A stretch of DNA of 64,000 nt from Verrucomicrobiota bacterium (GTDB lineage: Bacteria; Verrucomicrobiota; Verrucomicrobiia; Palsa-1439): assembly GCA_016871575.1 (NCBI GenBank), contig VHCW01000012.1, positions 1 to 64,000 of the forward strand, given 5' to 3'. The notes under the pieces were generated by a model, which saw only the letters and a list, made by a program, of their open reading frames with translations, was not told the origin of the DNA and did no database searches. Positions 11,531 to 63,711 of this stretch are shown piece by piece. The position numbers and the translations under genes were made by a program. The stretch's first letter is position 1. Each line of letters begins with the position of its first letter.

Positions 11531-11576
11531 CAATGCATTGCAGTTCCAAACAGGAACCCGGAAAAAGCATCCCACA

Positions 11577-11626
11577 CCCATTGTCCGGAATAGAGGAACG
11601 ATCGTTCCTCTATTCCGGACAATGGG
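11577..11626. repeat. Perfect 50-bp palindrome without a loop
   Basis: Two exact 25-bp complementary halves meet between 11601 and 11602 (central AACGA|TCGTT). The symmetry continues imperfectly outward (CATCCCACAC on the left, GTGTGGGTGATG on the right after a 6-nt interruption). It lies in the 209-bp gap between the oxidoreductase and the Ppx/GppA gene. No U-tract follows, so it is not an ordinary terminator. It may be a mobile or REP-like palindromic element. Confidence 0.9.
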
Positions 11627-11703
11627 CGCCGCGTGTGGGTGATGGAAAAGATGGCGCTGTTCCGCGTGGTGTTCCCGGCAGCGCACCAAGCGGTGTTCCG
11701 GGC

Positions 11704-23991: not shown

Positions 23992-25184
23992 CGGAAATAA
24001 TGGGGAACAAACCGGCTCAGGTTGCCGGTGATGCGGCGCGTGTCTTCGCGGATGCCCAACCCGGCCGGTTCGTGGTCAACGATCCAGACGCCGAAGATTG
24101 GGCGGTTGCCGTCGAATTCGGGCACCGGCGCCGCCGCTTGGAACACGTGCCCTTCCTCGCCGTAGTCGCCATCGGTTTCCTCGACGGCGACGCCGCCCTC
24201 GAACCACGCGACGTTGGCGCCTTCGCGGCTGAGTTTCGGTTTGCGGACGAAGTGCGGGCCGAGCGGCGCAGCGTCCTCGTAGGCCGGCAGAAGGTTCGGA
24301 TGGCCGGGGAACAACTCCCAGAGGATCGGCAGGAGACCTTTGTTGCTGAGGAGCATTTTCCAGGTCGGCTCGATGAACAGGACCGGCTCGCGCGCGAGGT
24401 GCGGACCAAACTCCTCGTGCCAGAGCCATTCCCACGGGTAGAGCTTGAAACAATGCGTGATCCGCTCGTTGTCGAGGTCAACGAAACACGATTGCTTCTC
24501 GTCCCAGCCGATGTCCTCGATGAACACCGGTTTGGTCTTCACGCCGGCTTGTTCGCAGGTATCGCGCAGATACAGGACGGTTTGTTCGTCCTCAATGTGT
24601 TCCTTGACGCTGCTGAAGTGGATGCTCGTTGTGGGCCGACACTGTGTGTCGGCGGACGGAACATCGCCGACTCGCAGAGTCGGCCTACAAGAAACACTAC
24701 CGGCAAACCGCCGCCACGCCTCGATGAGCCGTTCGTGAATCGAGTTGAACTGGTCGGCGCCGGTATGCGTGTCTTGAAGCCAGAACCATTGCGCGACGGC
24801 TGCCTCGATCAGCGCCGTCGGCGTGTCGGCATTGTATTCGAGAAGTTTCGGCCCCGACTTGGAGTCGGGGTCGTAGCTGAGGTCGAACCGCCCGTACAGG
24901 CTGAAGTCGTCGCGCTCCCACGAGCGAAGAATGGCGGGCACGGCGAGTTCGGGAATGCCGAGCCGTTGCCACCAGTGGTTGCGTATGACGGACTCCGCGG
25001 CCTCGATGCAAAGATAATGAAGCGCGTGCGCGGCGGTTTCGAGCGCGTCCACCTCGGCGGCAGTGAGTTCGTAGCAGGCCGATTCATCCCAGTACGGGCC
25101 TTCCGGGGGCGTGTGAAACGTCAGGCCGATCTTTTCGACCTTCTCGCGCCAATGAAGGCGGGGTTGGCAAGGATGACGTTGCAT
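23988..25184 (-). CDS. Glutathionylspermidine synthase-like ATP-grasp ligase (YgiC/YjfC family)
   Basis: 398-residue ATP-grasp protein of the glutathionylspermidine synthase family without the amidase half; the E. coli relatives YgiC and YjfC do not make glutathionylspermidine in known assays. Motifs: KIGLTFHTPPEGPYWDE at the N-terminus, LSYDPDSKSGPKLLEYNADTPTALIEA (the E-Y-N-A-D-T-P phrase is diagnostic), FIEPTWKMLLSNKGLLPILW, and the C-terminal GVWIVDHEPAGLGIRED. ATG 25184 overlaps the stop of the upstream gene. A 62-bp REPIN lies inside the frame and adds about 20 residues (CRPTLRVGDVPSADTQCRPT) before IHFSSV, a segment that relatives do not need. Confidence 0.88.
   Translation of the reverse strand: MQRHPCQPRLHWREKVEKIGLTFHTPPEGPYWDESACYELTAAEVDALETAAHALHYLCIEAAESVIRNHWWQRLGIPELAVPAILRSWERDDFSLYGRFDLSYDPDSKSGPKLLEYNADTPTALIEAAVAQWFWLQDTHTGADQFNSIHERLIEAWRRFAGSVSCRPTLRVGDVPSADTQCRPTTSIHFSSVKEHIEDEQTVLYLRDTCEQAGVKTKPVFIEDIGWDEKQSCFVDLDNERITHCFKLYPWEWLWHEEFGPHLAREPVLFIEPTWKMLLSNKGLLPILWELFPGHPNLLPAYEDAAPLGPHFVRKPKLSREGANVAWFEGGVAVEETDGDYGEEGHVFQAAAPVPEFDGNRPIFGVWIVDHEPAGLGIREDTRRITGNLSRFVPHYFR
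24629..24690. repeat. REPIN (inverted REP pair) inside the ATP-grasp gene
   Basis: Two hairpins in inverted orientation: GGCCGAC-ACTGTGT-GTCGGC on one side and GCCGACTCGCAGAGTCGGC on the other, bounded by TTGTGG and the complement of TTGTAG. GTAG/GTGG before a hairpin is the hallmark of REP elements moved by REP-associated tyrosine transposases. The reading frame of the host gene stays open through it. Confidence 0.85.
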
Positions 25185-38027: not shown

Positions 38028-38157
38028 GTTCGTAATGTACCAGAATGCAACCGCAATACGAAACAAATGTCGGCCTGATTCCGGTTTGCACCCGTGCGAA
38101 TCCCGATGCCGCCACAGAGCGGGACTCCAGCGTTCCGCCGCGATTTCCCGAAACAGA

Positions 38158-38199
38158 AGTCGCAGCTTTTTGTTATAATTATAACAAAAAGCTGCGACT
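38158..38199. repeat. 42-bp perfect palindrome, copy 1
   Basis: Exact 21-bp half-sites meeting at 38178/38179, with G+C-rich ends (AGTCGCAGC) and an A+T core (GTTATAATTATAAC). The right flank continues TACGGG, so the minus-strand reading begins GTAGTCGCAGC, the GTAG that marks REP-type elements. A near-identical copy lies 25 kb away at 63.7 kb. Confidence 0.92.
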
Positions 38200-38318
38200 A
38201 CGGGAGGGGGCGCGACACGAATGGGAACAGGCCGTCAACGGCGGCCGGGAAACACCGCGAAACAAATGGCTGACAGCGAACAATCGGCAGCGACGGGAGC
38301 GCTTGGATACTTCCGAAA

Positions 38319-40340
38319 TTATTGTGCGGGCGCGCCCTGGATTTCCAGTTCGCGCAGGAAGATGAAACCGTTGGCCTTTCGCTGGAAGGAAATCTCGTGC
38401 ACGTCGGGGAAGAACAGGCGCACGTGAGTCACGCCGCGCGCGGTCAGGCTCGTCAGTTCAAAAACATCTTTTGTGTAATTCTTGAACTCTGTCTTGCCGA
38501 GCGTCTTGAACTCCTTGCCGTCCTGCGAGACTTGGACCTCCACGGTCTTGGTGCCGCCCAACCCTGAGTTGTGGACGCGGATGTCTGTCACGTTGTATTT
38601 GCCTTTCAGGTCCACCGTCACGTGTTTGGGAAACTTCATGGCGCCGCTGGTCGCCCACGCAGTCTTGCTTGTGTCGCCCAAGTCGCCATCCGTCAGGCCA
38701 CCATACAGGCCGTTCGTGATCGGTTGATTGCAAACAGACGGCTTGCCCACGCCGATGCCGGTCACCTTGCCGGCGTCGTTCATTTCAAACTTGTCGGTAC
38801 GGAACGGCACCGCCGGGAAACCTTCTTTGTTGTACAGATTGCACAACGGAAAATCAGCCCACGCATAACGCACCGCCACCGGCGCAGCCACCTTCGGGCT
38901 GGAGACGATGACTTGCTTGCCTTGGATGACAGCGTTCGCCCAGTAAAACTTCTTGTCCGCGCCACAAATAGAGAACCCTTTCAGCGGACTCGCCGGCACG
39001 GAGTGTCCGTCGGTCTCGACCGCTTTCGTAATCAGTCCACCGCCCACGTTGTCGAACTCTAGCGCCGCCTGACCACCCTTGATCGTCATCCGCTTGAACA
39101 TCGGGCCGGCGGCGACGATGTCGCGACCGTACGCCACCTTCAACGCCGACGCCGCGAGCCGGGCGCCAACGGTCGGTTTATCCGGCGGATGGATGTTCGT
39201 CTGGTGCCCGACATCAATCGCCACGGCCATGCCGGTGTTGGGCAGCGAGAGCGTCATCGTTTGCGCCTCGCGCAGCCACGCCCAACCGGTGTCTTCCGTC
39301 TCGGGATTGTATTTGTGGTAAGCCGCCAGTTGGACGAACAGGAACGGGAAATCGCCGAGGCCCCACTGTTGACGCCACGAGGTAATGAGCGCGGGGAACA
39401 GCGTCCGATACTGGACGGCGCGACTGGAGTTGCCTTCGCCTTGGTACCAGATCGCGCCCTTGACGACGAACTGCTGCAACGGCGCGATCATGAAGTTGAA
39501 GAGTCCCGAAGGACGCTTCGGATGCTGCGGCCCCATCGGTGGCTGTGGCGCCCGGGCTTTGCCACGCTCGGACGGCTTCTTCGTCTTCCATTCTGCCAAG
39601 TTTTTTTGGAATTGCTCGTAAGCTTTTGGGTAATTGGCCTTGGCGGTTTCATAACCGTCGAGAATGTCCTTGAACTCTGGCCGGCTGCGCAACGTGTCTG
39701 CTGACATCCAACTCTCGGCCGGTGTCCCGCCGAGCGTGGCGTAGATCAACCCGACCGGCACACCGATCTCTGGTTGCAGTTTGCTGCCGAACAGATAGCC
39801 GGTGGCCGAGAATTCCATCGCACTTTCCTCGTCGCAGAGCCGCCAGACCGCGCCGAACGATTCGTCGGTAACCACGTCGCGCTGCGGCGTGTCCGCGCCG
39901 TCCTGCTTCAACTTGAACAGGCGAATCTTCGGGTTGGCCTTCGGGATGCCGGTGTAGAGGTGTTGATATTCCTTGTAGCCATCGCCCTTGTACGACTTGA
40001 GCACGCCGGCCATGTTGGATTGACCGGTGCAGAGCCAGACATCGCCGACCAAAATGTTCTTCAACGTCACCGCGTTGATCTTCATCGTGTGCGGTCCGCC
40101 CGCTTTCATCGCTGGCAACGCGACTTTCCATTGGCCATTCGCCACGGTGGCCGTGGCTTTCCGGCCGTTGAGTTCGACTGTCACCTTCTCGCCGTCATCG
40201 CCAGTGCCGTACACGGCGACGGGCCTGTCGCGTTGGAGAACCATGTTGTCAGTGAACAGCCCGTGCAGCTTCGCGGCGTTGAGCCGCGCCGGCAGACAGG
40301 CCATCATAAGAACGACAACAATCGAAAGTATTCGTTTCAT
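38319..40340 (-). CDS. Sialate O-acetylesterase-like SGNH esterase with C-terminal beta-sandwich
   Basis: 673-residue exported carbohydrate esterase. Signal peptide MKRILSIVVVLMMACLPARLNA. The N-terminal beta domain (LFTDNMVLQRDRPVAVYG) is typical of DUF303 esterases. The catalytic serine lies in CTGQSNMAG; block VKGAIWYQGEGNS follows; the His of the D-x-x-H type motif lies in NIHPPDKPTVGARLA. About 545-670 is an F5/8-type or NPCBM-like sandwich (KYNVTDIRVHNSGLGGTKTV). It would remove acetyl groups from sialic acid or pectic glycans. Its start overlaps the stop of the beta-helix gene (ATGA). Confidence 0.88.
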   Translation of the reverse strand: MKRILSIVVVLMMACLPARLNAAKLHGLFTDNMVLQRDRPVAVYGTGDDGEKVTVELNGRKATATVANGQWKVALPAMKAGGPHTMKINAVTLKNILVGDVWLCTGQSNMAGVLKSYKGDGYKEYQHLYTGIPKANPKIRLFKLKQDGADTPQRDVVTDESFGAVWRLCDEESAMEFSATGYLFGSKLQPEIGVPVGLIYATLGGTPAESWMSADTLRSRPEFKDILDGYETAKANYPKAYEQFQKNLAEWKTKKPSERGKARAPQPPMGPQHPKRPSGLFNFMIAPLQQFVVKGAIWYQGEGNSSRAVQYRTLFPALITSWRQQWGLGDFPFLFVQLAAYHKYNPETEDTGWAWLREAQTMTLSLPNTGMAVAIDVGHQTNIHPPDKPTVGARLAASALKVAYGRDIVAAGPMFKRMTIKGGQAALEFDNVGGGLITKAVETDGHSVPASPLKGFSICGADKKFYWANAVIQGKQVIVSSPKVAAPVAVRYAWADFPLCNLYNKEGFPAVPFRTDKFEMNDAGKVTGIGVGKPSVCNQPITNGLYGGLTDGDLGDTSKTAWATSGAMKFPKHVTVDLKGKYNVTDIRVHNSGLGGTKTVEVQVSQDGKEFKTLGKTEFKNYTKDVFELTSLTARGVTHVRLFFPDVHEISFQRKANGFIFLRELEIQGAPAQ

Positions 40341-42235
40341 GGTTTTGATTCCTTGATGGATGTGTTTTCCAACTGCACGTCGGCGGTGTTGCCGCGCACT
40401 ACGGCATTTTGCACGTCGCGGAGCAGGATTGCAACACTGGGAAAGCCGGTGATCTCGTTGTCGGTGATGAACAGGTTGCGGTGGAGTTTGTCAGCGCCGC
40501 TCTTGAAAATAGTCGCCCAGATGGCGGCGTGCTCGCGCGCGAGTTGGCCGCAGTCGCGAATCCGATTACCGCGCACAACATAGTCCACCGCGCCCAAACC
40601 CTCGAACGGCGCATTCCAGAATTCGACCGCACCGCCGCCGAGTCCCTCGAACGTGTTGTTCTCGATCAACCCGCCCCGGCCTTTCGCCAACACACCGATG
40701 CGGCGGCCGTTGCGCACGGTGTTGTTGCGGAATACAAACTGGTTGCAGGTCCGGCTTGCGTTAAAGACCTGCGTGATCGTCGCGTCGGACGGAACTTTCT
40801 TCAACCCAACCCGTTTGACGCCGGGGCGGCCAGTCACGATGTCGCCCACGTCGCCGTCGAGCGTCACGTCGAGCATAGTAGTCCTCACGCTCCGCGTGAG
40901 GAACCCGCCGGCATCATCACGCGGAGCGTGATGACTACTGCTGACGACCTTGCGCTCGCTGATGAGCCGGCCTTCAGCGCGATTGAAGAACTGCAGAACA
41001 TCGCCCCGCTGGATGTCGAGCGCGACATTCGGGCCGACGGCGTCGTAGGGATTGCGCAGTGGCAAACGGACACGGTCGGACGCGAGCTTTTCCTCAACGC
41101 CCATGACGAGGCAGTTGACGTGACAGATGTCGTCGCCGGTATTTTCCCATGTGCAGCCTTCGATCCACGGGCCGACGCGGGCGTTGTGGTGGTTGTGGCC
41201 GCCGTTGTTGGCAGCAATGAAACGGCCTGGCTTCAAACGGATGCCGCAGTGCAGGATGCTGAGGCGGTTGCCGTAGTGGGAGTTAAATCCCTCGTTGGCG
41301 ACGGCGTACGCAGTGAGATTGTAAAAGACGATTTCGTCGCAAGCGTCCACGTCGAACCCCGTGGCGATGCGCGGGTCGAGCACATACACGTCACCGGGGG
41401 CCAGTTCGGTTGTCTGCTTGGCTCTCGCCGCCGTGAACCGGTAGCGACGCTCGCCGAGCTTTTGCCAGCCGGCGTGCTCGAACACCAGCGTCACGCCGCG
41501 TTTCATGCGCGGGAATTTCGGGTCAACGATCATCCCTTTCTTGTCCTTCTCGAAATACGGGTTCGTCTCCGGCAGCGGATGACCGGGCGCGATCTCGACG
41601 TCAAACGTCCCTGCCTTCGTGTCCACCGTCAACACGCGCCCCGCCGTGTACGGCAACGGGTCGTAGTCGAACGTAAGATTCTTCACCAGCACGCGCCGGC
41701 AATGTTCCAGCTTCACGAACTTCAAGAACCCGGTGAACGTCATGTTTGCGCCGTTGCCGTCAATGACGAGGTCGGTTGCGTTCGTGAAGTTGATGAATGC
41801 CGCCGCGCCGCCGGGATCGAGGCGGTAGTCGCTTTTCTCGAACTTGATCAGTGCCGGTGTTTGAGTGGCAAACGCGCGCTGGATATCGGCAAACGTCGCG
41901 CTCTTCGGAATCTCCACGATGCGTTCCGGTTGCCGTACCGTGAACTTCCCCGTCGCGCCCGCCACGCGCCACCAGTAATCGCCCGGCGCGAGTTCCTTGT
42001 CCGGCACATACCGGTTGATGACAGGGGCGATGCGGTCTTCGTCCACAATACGCGTGAACTTCTCGTCCGCGGCGATCTGGATGTGATAGTCGGACTTCTG
42101 TTCACTCGCCGGCTGCCAGCGGAAATGCGGAATGCTCATCATCGTCACTGCGCCATTCGCCGGTTCAAGCAAGGTAGTCGCTTCCGCTGCGTGCAGTGCG
42201 GCCAGAAACACGACGAAGTTCAAAGCGTGTCGCAT
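40337..42235 (-). CDS. Right-handed parallel beta-helix protein carrying an in-frame REPIN
   Basis: 632-residue exported protein. MRHALNFVVFLAALHAAEA signal peptide; about 20-110 Fn3-like domain (IPHFRWQPASEQKSDYHIQI); then a long beta-helix with pectate-lyase-like and GH110-like coils (LVIDGNGANMTFTGF, NLTFDYDPLPYTAG, VFRNNTVRNGRRIG, ENNTFEGLGGGAVEF). The overall order resembles GH110 alpha-galactosidases, but I cannot assign catalytic acids. Exactly 63 bp of REPIN (21 codons, SSSHHAPRDDAGGFLTRSVR region) lie between LISERKVV and MLDVTLDG without breaking the frame. ATG 42235 is preferred to 42250, since it directly opens the signal peptide just after the HzsA-like stop. Confidence 0.82.
   Translation of the reverse strand: MRHALNFVVFLAALHAAEATTLLEPANGAVTMMSIPHFRWQPASEQKSDYHIQIAADEKFTRIVDEDRIAPVINRYVPDKELAPGDYWWRVAGATGKFTVRQPERIVEIPKSATFADIQRAFATQTPALIKFEKSDYRLDPGGAAAFINFTNATDLVIDGNGANMTFTGFLKFVKLEHCRRVLVKNLTFDYDPLPYTAGRVLTVDTKAGTFDVEIAPGHPLPETNPYFEKDKKGMIVDPKFPRMKRGVTLVFEHAGWQKLGERRYRFTAARAKQTTELAPGDVYVLDPRIATGFDVDACDEIVFYNLTAYAVANEGFNSHYGNRLSILHCGIRLKPGRFIAANNGGHNHHNARVGPWIEGCTWENTGDDICHVNCLVMGVEEKLASDRVRLPLRNPYDAVGPNVALDIQRGDVLQFFNRAEGRLISERKVVSSSHHAPRDDAGGFLTRSVRTTMLDVTLDGDVGDIVTGRPGVKRVGLKKVPSDATITQVFNASRTCNQFVFRNNTVRNGRRIGVLAKGRGGLIENNTFEGLGGGAVEFWNAPFEGLGAVDYVVRGNRIRDCGQLAREHAAIWATIFKSGADKLHRNLFITDNEITGFPSVAILLRDVQNAVVRGNTADVQLENTSIKESKP
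40877..40939. repeat. REPIN of 63 bp inside a beta-helix gene
   Basis: AGTAGTC + hairpin CCTCACGCTCCGCGTGAGG, spacer, hairpin CATCACGCGGAGCGTGATG + GACTACT. GTAG tetranucleotides face outwards at both ends. The length is an exact multiple of three. A second copy of this family is at 56.4 kb. Confidence 0.92.
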
Positions 42236-42237
42236 GG

Positions 42238-44514
42238 CTACCGGTGCCACGGCGGCGCGAGGAAACTCGTGGCTTCCACGAACGTCGCCCGGCGACGGAA
42301 GTCGGCGGGATTGTAGTCGGGAATCTTCGGATCAGGGTTGACCCATTGAGGATGCTGGCGGCCAAAATAGCTTCCGTAGAACTGATAGTTGCTGTCCACC
42401 CAACGACTGAGAATCATCAGTTCCATCGGCGTGAGCCGCTGGGTGTGGTCTTGCTTCGCGTTCTTCGGATGTCTTGCGTCGGTGAGCAACGCGATCAGCG
42501 TGCTCTTCGGGCAGCCGAGGTTCTTCGGCGGCAGATACGCGCCGTTGTAGTTGCCGCGGTCGCCTTCGTTGAACGAGGTGAATTCGGGAATGATCGGCCC
42601 GGCCAGTTTCTTCTTGGCCAGTTCCTCGTAGGAGGTGCTGTAGAATTGCGTGATCTCGCCGGTCAACCGCAGTCCGCCGGCGGGTTCGTTCCGGCCGTGG
42701 CATTTGACACACTTGGCGTCGAGGATCGTCTGGATGTCGGTCGGGTAATGGATGACTTGTCCCGGCTGGCCGTCGAGGTCGCACGGTTGCGGCTGGGGGA
42801 TGCTCGGCGCACGGGCCGAGGCCAACGACGGCGCGGACTCGCCCGCCGTGGCGGTGCGGTGTGACGGAACATGACAACCCGTGCATGATCGCACTTCGCC
42901 GGGCGCGTAGTTCACATACGTCCGCTCACGCTGGAGTTCGCGGAAATTCACATCGAGGGCTTGGAAGAAAATATTCCGGTTCGCCGGCACGACGAAATGG
43001 GCGGAACCGTCTTTCTCGACCGGCACGACGCCCCATTGGACGCGCGGCCAGAGCGCCGCCTTCCAACTGGAACTGCTCAACGACGGCGTCCATCGGCGGC
43101 CCGTGGACCAGTACCGCGGCAGCGCTTCGTTGATGCGCAACCATTTCACTTCACCCGGCTTCACTCCGTCCATGCCTTGATAGACGTTGTGCACGACGCA
43201 GAGAGACTGGTTGCTGGCAACATAACGCGGATCACGGGGCGAAGCCACCTGCGGCGGAACGCGCCTCGCGATCAATGGCGTGGGATGCCAGCACGAGAGA
43301 TCCGGGTCGGCGTGGATAAGTTGGTGGCGGCCCTTGGTGTCGAGGAGATACAACGCGTAGGCGTTGGCGACGTCCTTGTAATGGTCGCCGGGCCGGACTT
43401 TGTAGGAGACGAGGAACTCGTGGTCGTTGATTGGAAACGGATGCGTGTAGAGATGCCCCTGCTTGCCGAGTTTGTCCAACACGTAGTTGCCCTGCTCGGT
43501 ACGGAAATGCCAGCCCGGTTCCATTCGCCGCTGAATGAACACCGCCGGCGTGATGTTGACGACCGGATACCGGCTGTCGCCTTGCACGTAGCCCGGTTCA
43601 TCCGGGTCCGGCCCCGGCAGTTTCGTTTCCCGTCCGAAATCAACCAACAGAATCGAACCCAAACAGCCGCCCTGCGGGTAGTGGCACGTTCCCACGCACA
43701 CGAAACGATGAGTGCTGCCGGGAATCGGCTGCGGATACATGTAAACCGGCGTCGCGTCGTCAGCCAAGCCGAAGAGTTCCTGTGAGCGCGTGCCGTCGGG
43801 GTTCATTGACCAGATTGTCTTCGAGACTCGCGCGCCGCGGTCAATGTACTCCCAGCGATGATACATCACGCGCCCGTCATCGAGCATTACCGGGCAAAAC
43901 TCACTCACGGGACTCCGGGAGAGCTGTTCGACATGCGACCCGTCGGCGTTCATCCGGTGCAACACGGGGGCTGCGAGCGCCGCCGAACCGCCGCACAGAA
44001 TCGTGTGCTCGGAGCGCGTTGAAGAGAAAATGATCTTCCCATCCGGCAAGTAACAAGGATGAATGTCGTCGGTGTGCCAACCCGGCTTCCAGCGCGCCGC
44101 CTTCTCCGCTTCGTCGGCCGGCGGGAACGACACCTGCCGCAGCCCCTTGCCGTCGGTCTTCACTTCCCAGATGCGGAACCCGGAGTTCGGGTCCTGACGA
44201 AAATCGAAAAGGATCTTCTTCGCATCGAACGACAGGCTGATGTAACCGATGAACCCCTGGCCGCCGGGCAACTTGGCCGCAGTGACGACGGGGCGCTCGG
44301 TGCGCGTGCGGACGTTGTAGATGTAGATGCCGTTGTCGGGCTGGAACCGGTCGGCGCTGGTGCCGTTGTTGATGTCGGTGTAGTAATGGTCCGACGAGTA
44401 GGGCTTGCGTTTGACGAACGCGATCTCATCGCAGCCCAACTCCTTCGGCGTGACATCCGCAAGCGCCGACGAAAAACAAGCCATCACGCCAAGAAAGAGA
44501 CGAAACGTTTTCAC
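42238..44514 (-). CDS. HzsA-related exported di-haem cytochrome c-type protein
   Basis: 758 residues from GTG (VKTFRLFLGVMACFSSALA signal peptide). About 30-420 is a WD40/TolB-like propeller (YISLSFDAKKILFDFRQDP, DIHPCYLPDGKIIFSS), the middle matches the hydrazine synthase alpha-subunit-like domain, and two c-type haem sites follow: CTGCH at about 544 and CVKCH at about 602. No HzsB/HzsC genes are near, so hydrazine synthesis is not implied. Relatives are widespread in planctomycetes and verrucomicrobia beside glycan genes. The start is set by a promoter ending 6 nt upstream. It heads a minus-strand transcript with the beta-helix and esterase genes (gaps 2 nt and -4 nt). Confidence 0.82.
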   Translation of the reverse strand: MKTFRLFLGVMACFSSALADVTPKELGCDEIAFVKRKPYSSDHYYTDINNGTSADRFQPDNGIYIYNVRTRTERPVVTAAKLPGGQGFIGYISLSFDAKKILFDFRQDPNSGFRIWEVKTDGKGLRQVSFPPADEAEKAARWKPGWHTDDIHPCYLPDGKIIFSSTRSEHTILCGGSAALAAPVLHRMNADGSHVEQLSRSPVSEFCPVMLDDGRVMYHRWEYIDRGARVSKTIWSMNPDGTRSQELFGLADDATPVYMYPQPIPGSTHRFVCVGTCHYPQGGCLGSILLVDFGRETKLPGPDPDEPGYVQGDSRYPVVNITPAVFIQRRMEPGWHFRTEQGNYVLDKLGKQGHLYTHPFPINDHEFLVSYKVRPGDHYKDVANAYALYLLDTKGRHQLIHADPDLSCWHPTPLIARRVPPQVASPRDPRYVASNQSLCVVHNVYQGMDGVKPGEVKWLRINEALPRYWSTGRRWTPSLSSSSWKAALWPRVQWGVVPVEKDGSAHFVVPANRNIFFQALDVNFRELQRERTYVNYAPGEVRSCTGCHVPSHRTATAGESAPSLASARAPSIPQPQPCDLDGQPGQVIHYPTDIQTILDAKCVKCHGRNEPAGGLRLTGEITQFYSTSYEELAKKKLAGPIIPEFTSFNEGDRGNYNGAYLPPKNLGCPKSTLIALLTDARHPKNAKQDHTQRLTPMELMILSRWVDSNYQFYGSYFGRQHPQWVNPDPKIPDYNPADFRRRATFVEATSFLAPPWHR

Positions 44515-56363: not shown

Positions 56364-56425
56364 GTTGTCCTCACGCTCCGCGTGAGGAACGATCCCGGAA
56401 CCATCACGCGGAGCGTGATGAGTAC
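56364..56425. repeat. REPIN (same family as the one inside the beta-helix gene)
   Basis: GTTGTC + CCTCACGCTCCGCGTGAGG, spacer, CATCACGCGGAGCGTGATG + AGTAC, starting 4 nt after the oxidoreductase stop. Here it is extragenic. Confidence 0.9.
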
Positions 56426-63667: not shown

Positions 63668-63711
63668 CAGTCGCGGCTTTTTGTTATAATTATAACAAAA
63701 AGCTGCGACTG
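63668..63711. repeat. Long palindrome, copy 2 (overlaps a gene end)
   Basis: Same 42-bp sequence as at 38158-38199 except one G for A in the left arm (a G-T opposition), extended by one C-G pair. The left half overlies the end of the macro-domain gene and supplies its stop codon. Confidence 0.92.

Follow-up and report, generated by a model that had tools for sequence, protein, structure and literature searches.

A palindromic repeat of the REPIN type lies at 40877-40939, inside an open reading frame on the minus strand of the 64,000-nucleotide stretch of Verrucomicrobiota DNA analysed here (the window). This locus raises the question of whether such an element is tolerated as a coding insert or adapted as one, both of which had been proposed in the initial annotation, and whether selection for open frames shapes the copies found in genes.

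Structure and reading frame of the element

The element reads AGTAGTCCTCACGCTCCGCGTGAGG-AACCCGCCGGCAT-CATCACGCGGAGCGTGATGACTACT and consists of two inverted 25-bp REPs and a 13-bp spacer. A C-type half on the plus strand (40877-40901; AGTAGTCC-TCACGCTCCGCGTGA-GG) is followed by the spacer AACCCGCCGGCAT (40902-40914), which none of the other copies shares, and by an inverted A-type half on the minus strand (40915-40939; CA-TCACGCGGAGCGTGA-TGACTACT). The two inverted REPs form a hairpin: the 63-bp single strand folds at -28.2 kcal/mol, compared with -8.9 kcal/mol for shuffled sequences (z = -9.5). Sequence and fold thus agree with the annotation of a REPIN of exactly 63 bp with outward GTAG at both ends; other copies carry GTAC or GTAG as their outer heads. 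The exact core TCACGCTCCGCGTGA matches four times in the window, only as two inverted pairs, one in this element and one at 56371-56418. The second pair belongs to a copy of the same family with a different spacer at 56364-56425, which is extragenic, as annotated.

In minus-strand orientation, the element makes up exactly 21 codons without a stop in ORF 40337-42250 and codes in frame for SSHHAPRDDAGGFLTRSVRTT (residues 438-458). Both flanks are coding in the same frame (codon scores 17.5 and 18.3), and the whole dimer lies in a stop-free ORF of more than 120 amino acids, as intragenic REPs are defined. Two genes with translated REPINs had been counted in the window. Only one gene holds a REPIN of this family. 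At 24838-24878, a coding ORF of the minus strand (..SYDPDSKSGPKLLEYN..) contains, in frame, a single REP with a GTAG tag that belongs to a different family (CCCCGACTTGGAGTCGGGGTCGTAG). The window also contains a perfect, loopless 50-bp palindrome at 11575-11628 (CCCATTGTCCGGAATAGAGGAACGA and its reverse complement) and two near-identical AT-cored palindromes (GTCGCAGCTTTTTGTTATAATTATAACAAAAAGCTGCGAC) at 38156-38201 and 63668-63711, apparently extragenic.

The host gene and the insertion site

The host gene (40337-42250, minus strand) is an intact ORF of 637 amino acids counted from GTG. Translation probably begins at the ATG of residue 6, where MRHALNFVVFLAALHAAEA resembles a signal peptide by eye, and the protein is presumably secreted. 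A Pfam Beta_helix match covers residues 502-623 (40382-40747, minus strand), downstream of the insert. The annotated insertion into a beta-helix protein therefore applies to the host, whereas the insert itself lies about 44 residues upstream of the match and outside it.

The closest homologue found (G032:C37:25974-27842) is 55% identical, aligns over residues 12-622 and does not contain the element. Its site reads VVSAVPQEKAIEVTVDRD, and the window protein there reads VVS[SSHHAPRDDAGGFLTRSVRTTM]LDVTLDGD, giving a loop of 9 residues in the homologue versus 24 in the window protein. The 21 codons are present in frame and without a stop, but the net gain over the homologue is about 15 residues rather than the 21 first proposed; native codons were presumably lost at the insertion site. 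Loop length also varies in more distant homologues, so the element occupies a variable loop, probably one belonging to a beta-hairpin. An AF2 run on the window protein with single-sequence input was uninformative (mean pLDDT 38).

Copies across the genome and the length of intragenic elements

The genome from which the window comes (G000) is a 5.19-Mb draft in 257 contigs, 95% complete. It contains 23 perfect REPIN pairs, and 70 half-sites at no more than one mismatch resolve into 42 elements. Two of these, the one-mismatch half-sites L032:4011 and L056:4057, have no REP heads and were set aside as probable chance matches. About 31 of the remaining ~40 near-identical copies are extragenic, as is usual for REPINs, and nine lie in frame within ORFs with recognisable domains. 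The intragenic calls, and with them the putative coding status of the bearer genes, are based on 300-bp flanks scored with a home-made codon table trained on the longest ORFs and on Pfam domains. By Pfam, the bearers are four sulfatases (L029, L030:10036, L054:4043 and L054:8525, the first two with single REPs), three GH106 alpha-L-rhamnosidases (L030:4050, L036 and L051), one FG-GAP/ASPIC protein (L040) and the Beta_helix protein of the window (ORF 40337-42250, minus strand). Locus L049, considered as a disrupted gene, appears instead to be a sulfatase with its 3' end inside the REPIN.

Nine genic copies in 40 is far below what random landing would give in a mostly coding genome (80-90% coding assumed). 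Genome-wide, the intragenic copies were not confined to pseudogenes, and the nine in-frame copies in ORFs with intact domains bear out the earlier view that these elements are tolerated as coding inserts. The intragenic halves at L051:4016-4065 and L347 (G387:C108:4965) have a compensated stem variant, TCTCGC..GCGAGA in place of the usual TCACGC..GCGTGA, in which both arms are changed and the palindrome is preserved.

Total lengths inside genes were 63, 63, 63, 63, 66, 66 and 64 bp; extragenic copies are mainly 64, 71 and 60 bp. In this genome, length was divisible by three in six of seven intragenic versus 7 of 24 extragenic elements (Fisher p=0.012), in a small sample in which L030 and L036 are non-independent. 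The 64-bp intragenic copy is also in frame because its boundaries differ. Two of three frames are open in each REP half, and all intragenic full left halves in this genome use the APRD frame (HHAPRD, HLAPRD, RLAPRD), never the hydrophobic LTLRV frame. The proposed selection for open frames holds on these data as survivorship.

Recurrent occupation of the sulfatase hinge

There are 148 sulfatase (PF00884) matches in the 5.2 Mb of G000, of which 141 were collected for comparison. Four of these ~141 sulfatases are REP-bearing, and five more bearers occur in four other genomes. All four bearers in G000 carry the element in the hinge that links the end of the Pfam domain to the motif DGV. By the same counting, native hinges are mostly 12-14 residues long, those with a full REPIN 28-29 and those with a single REP 14-16. 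Native residues appear to be missing and not merely displaced, because a full REPIN codes for ~21-22 residues, yet the hinges reach only 28-29. In one sulfatase, a single REP has taken the position of the native loop, matching its length and keeping P/D in register (LAASSHHAPRDESLDGV versus LAAAGVPLPTDKPLDGV). Further hinge copies were found in G398, G387, G394 and G393, and some of them are decaying.

The grouping of REP-bearing sulfatases in one clade was rejected with the insert masked (p-AU 5e-56, at least 6 changes); a larger sulfatase tree gave 5 changes. A single insertion followed by simple duplication was likewise rejected by the tree tests. Judged from these trees, the hinge is occupied independently several times. 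One bearer has a sister sulfatase, 62% identical, without the element. Solved S1 sulfatases (6prm) align over a stretch that lacks the length of the insert. For the REPIN-bearing sulfatase of G398, AF2 gives a fold matching solved S1 sulfatases, in which the insert (391-407) has pLDDT below 50 between well-predicted helices.

DNA identity in FG-GAP and GH106 paralogues

The FG-GAP gene site holds a full REPIN in G000, in G398 and in two paralogues of G393, a single REP in two genes and no element in three. The genes of G000 and G398 are 86% identical in amino acids and have the same site and a related spacer, as do those of G393. The two G393 paralogues differ at 0 of 66 insert positions, whereas their hosts have ~72% nucleotide identity (~28% differing). 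The identical tract is ~110 nt long and centred on the REPIN, with ~67-92% identity per 24-nt block outside it. In the GH106 pair L030/L036, a 47-nt core including the spacer is identical and the hosts are 56% identical in amino acids (44% differing); identity is raised in the right flank only. These alignments, from only two pairs, suggest local conversion between paralogues. The pair search behind the full G393 and G398 copies demanded exact cores, which biases these copies towards identity at 30 of the 66 nt; the rows with a single REP in G393 and G387 were chosen without this demand and still have the exact core.

Distribution of the family and association with RAYT

Of 384 genomes of the class, 6 contain the exact REPIN pair, G000 included; ten other genomes of the family do not. 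Among contigs of Planctomycetota, Lentisphaerae and Verrucomicrobia, the pair occurs in at least 114 stretches, and nine of the 136 elements scored among the matches listed in PVC contigs are in frame by the same criterion. Across 294 genomes of the G393 phylum, a peptide search run with no positive control gave nothing at E<=1e-6; the search was repeated with a control in 24 REPIN-bearing genomes.

The relative G044 (C117) contains a RAYT-like Y1_Tnp gene at L065:1504-2475 with the REPIN family of 40877-40939 on both sides, although its Y1_Tnp match of 21.9 bits is just under the Pfam cut-off of 23. A REP flanking both sides of the gene is the expected REP-RAYT arrangement. Among the nine Y1_Tnp matches of G000, of which eight loci were inspected in an assembly with ~5% of the genome missing, none was found adjoining a REP of this family. 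Presence and absence among homologues are consistent with a REPIN mobile as a unit.

In G000, the two Y1_Tnp genes L006 (G000:C57) and L008 (G000:C33) each have a distinct GTAG REP family in their flanks, which means that several RAYT-REP pairs coexist in this genome. At L008:1351-2532 (around 39487 of C33), the RAYT-like Y1_Tnp and its flanking GTAG REPs are in frame at the 5' end of trpF (PRAI); the trpF part has no directly preceding ATG, GTG or TTG, making an apparent RAYT::TrpF fusion ORF. A REPIN type with a 55-bp core directly precedes an ATG (..TGACTAC..ATGAAACA..), with the same context in L181 (G013:C20) and L189 (G044:C335).

Origin of the intragenic copies

We consider it likely that the intragenic copies reflect RAYT/REPIN insertion that is tolerated in surface loops and frame-filtered by selection. 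A RAYT, a Y1 single-strand transposase, would spread the family, and one copy would have landed in a beta-hairpin loop of a secreted beta-helix-type protein. It may have survived there because it is 63 bp long and has one open hydrophilic frame (HHAPRD...LTRSVR), at a site largely indifferent to length and sequence. Genome-wide and across PVC phyla, genic insertions would be purged unless in frame in tolerant loops such as the sulfatase hinge, the GH106 end and the FG-GAP loop, and this filter would make the same sites recur. RAYT mobilisation in G000 and neutrality of the insert are presumed here. Against this reading, none of the Y1_Tnp loci inspected in G000 adjoins a REP of this family, and in two pairs of paralogues the elements are more alike in DNA than the genes that carry them, which goes beyond simple old neutral inserts.

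Domestication, in which the REP-coded peptide is useful as a loop or linker or in binding a partner and is kept by protein-level selection, would also account for the reuse of sites within sulfatases, GH106 and FG-GAP proteins (across several phyla for the first and last of these), and for the single REP that matches its native loop in length and register. We regard it as unlikely, since survivorship accounts for the recurrence equally well, presence varies among close homologues, several copies are decaying and the host families have no common function beyond being (probably) secreted catabolic proteins. The low-confidence loop in the one modelled bearer also argues against it, and of the two fates first suggested, tolerance is supported, with adaptation only a possibility. 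Inheritance of an ancient insertion with genes that then moved vertically or horizontally would fit the FG-GAP gene, with its shared site and related spacer in G000, G398 and G393, but the sulfatases do not fit, the closest homologue found for the window gene is without the element, and the core would have had to stay exact over large divergence; this is highly improbable. An assembly error or a chance palindrome might be suspected in a draft of 257 contigs, given that palindromes can misassemble; we give this hardly any credence, as the element does not reach the length of a read and has a spacer of its own, its position is mid-contig and in frame, and the pattern recurs in independently assembled genomes.

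The raised DNA identity in the G393 FG-GAP and L030/L036 pairs favours spread from paralogue to paralogue by local gene conversion or a homing-like process begun at the hairpin, in place of independent transposition. This concerns two pairs only; other intragenic copies have differing spacers, and those in sulfatases are, in addition, spread over distant paralogues, which makes it a distinctly doubtful general route. A broader possibility, which we offer as speculative and improbable, is that the REPIN hairpin is a cassette working at the DNA level, which would overwrite homologous surface loops of enzyme families again and again in PVC bacteria through paralogue conversion at the hairpin, leaving a standard hydrophilic peptide. 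If so, a selfish repeat would remodel the loops of the genome's large sulfatase repertoire. Repeats named for lying outside genes prove to supply protein loops repeatedly within a large set of enzymes. At a single structural site, many paralogues have an insert, lack one or have one in decay, so that the choice between neutral passenger and useful coding module is directly testable.

Comparison with known systems

REPINs were described as replicative units in extragenic space (Bertels and Rainey 2011, PMC3116915). The present family resembles the REPIN-RAYT system in its inverted REP doublet hairpin, its many copies and the adjoining RAYT (here in the relative G044); unlike that system, nine of ~40 elements are in frame inside genes, and no cognate RAYT was found in G000 itself. 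The Rickettsia palindromic elements, insofar as they are described in the comparison within PMC3733652, are likewise palindromic repeats in frame in many protein genes. Those compared there are CGTC-tagged, whereas the tags here are GTAG or GTAC and the sequence is different; the element at 40877-40939 ends in GTAG.

The closest precedent is the GTAG-tagged REP dimers found in frame in genes, coding for 20-30 aa and most abundant in the verrucomicrobium Opitutus terrae, for which a loop or linker location was suggested (Di Nocera et al. 2013, PMC3733652). In-frame intragenic GTAG REPs, Verrucomicrobia included, are therefore already known, and the window copy alone is another instance of them. 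That study emphasised DNA repair genes, with mostly differing sites (except recB of Xanthomonas); in the present data, insertions recur at homologous loops of sulfatases, GH106 and FG-GAP proteins in several phyla, with native residues apparently replaced. As far as our literature search shows, this repeated occupation of homologous loops across PVC phyla in the three families is new, and so, to the same extent, are the apparent replacement of native loops and the tracts of DNA identity.
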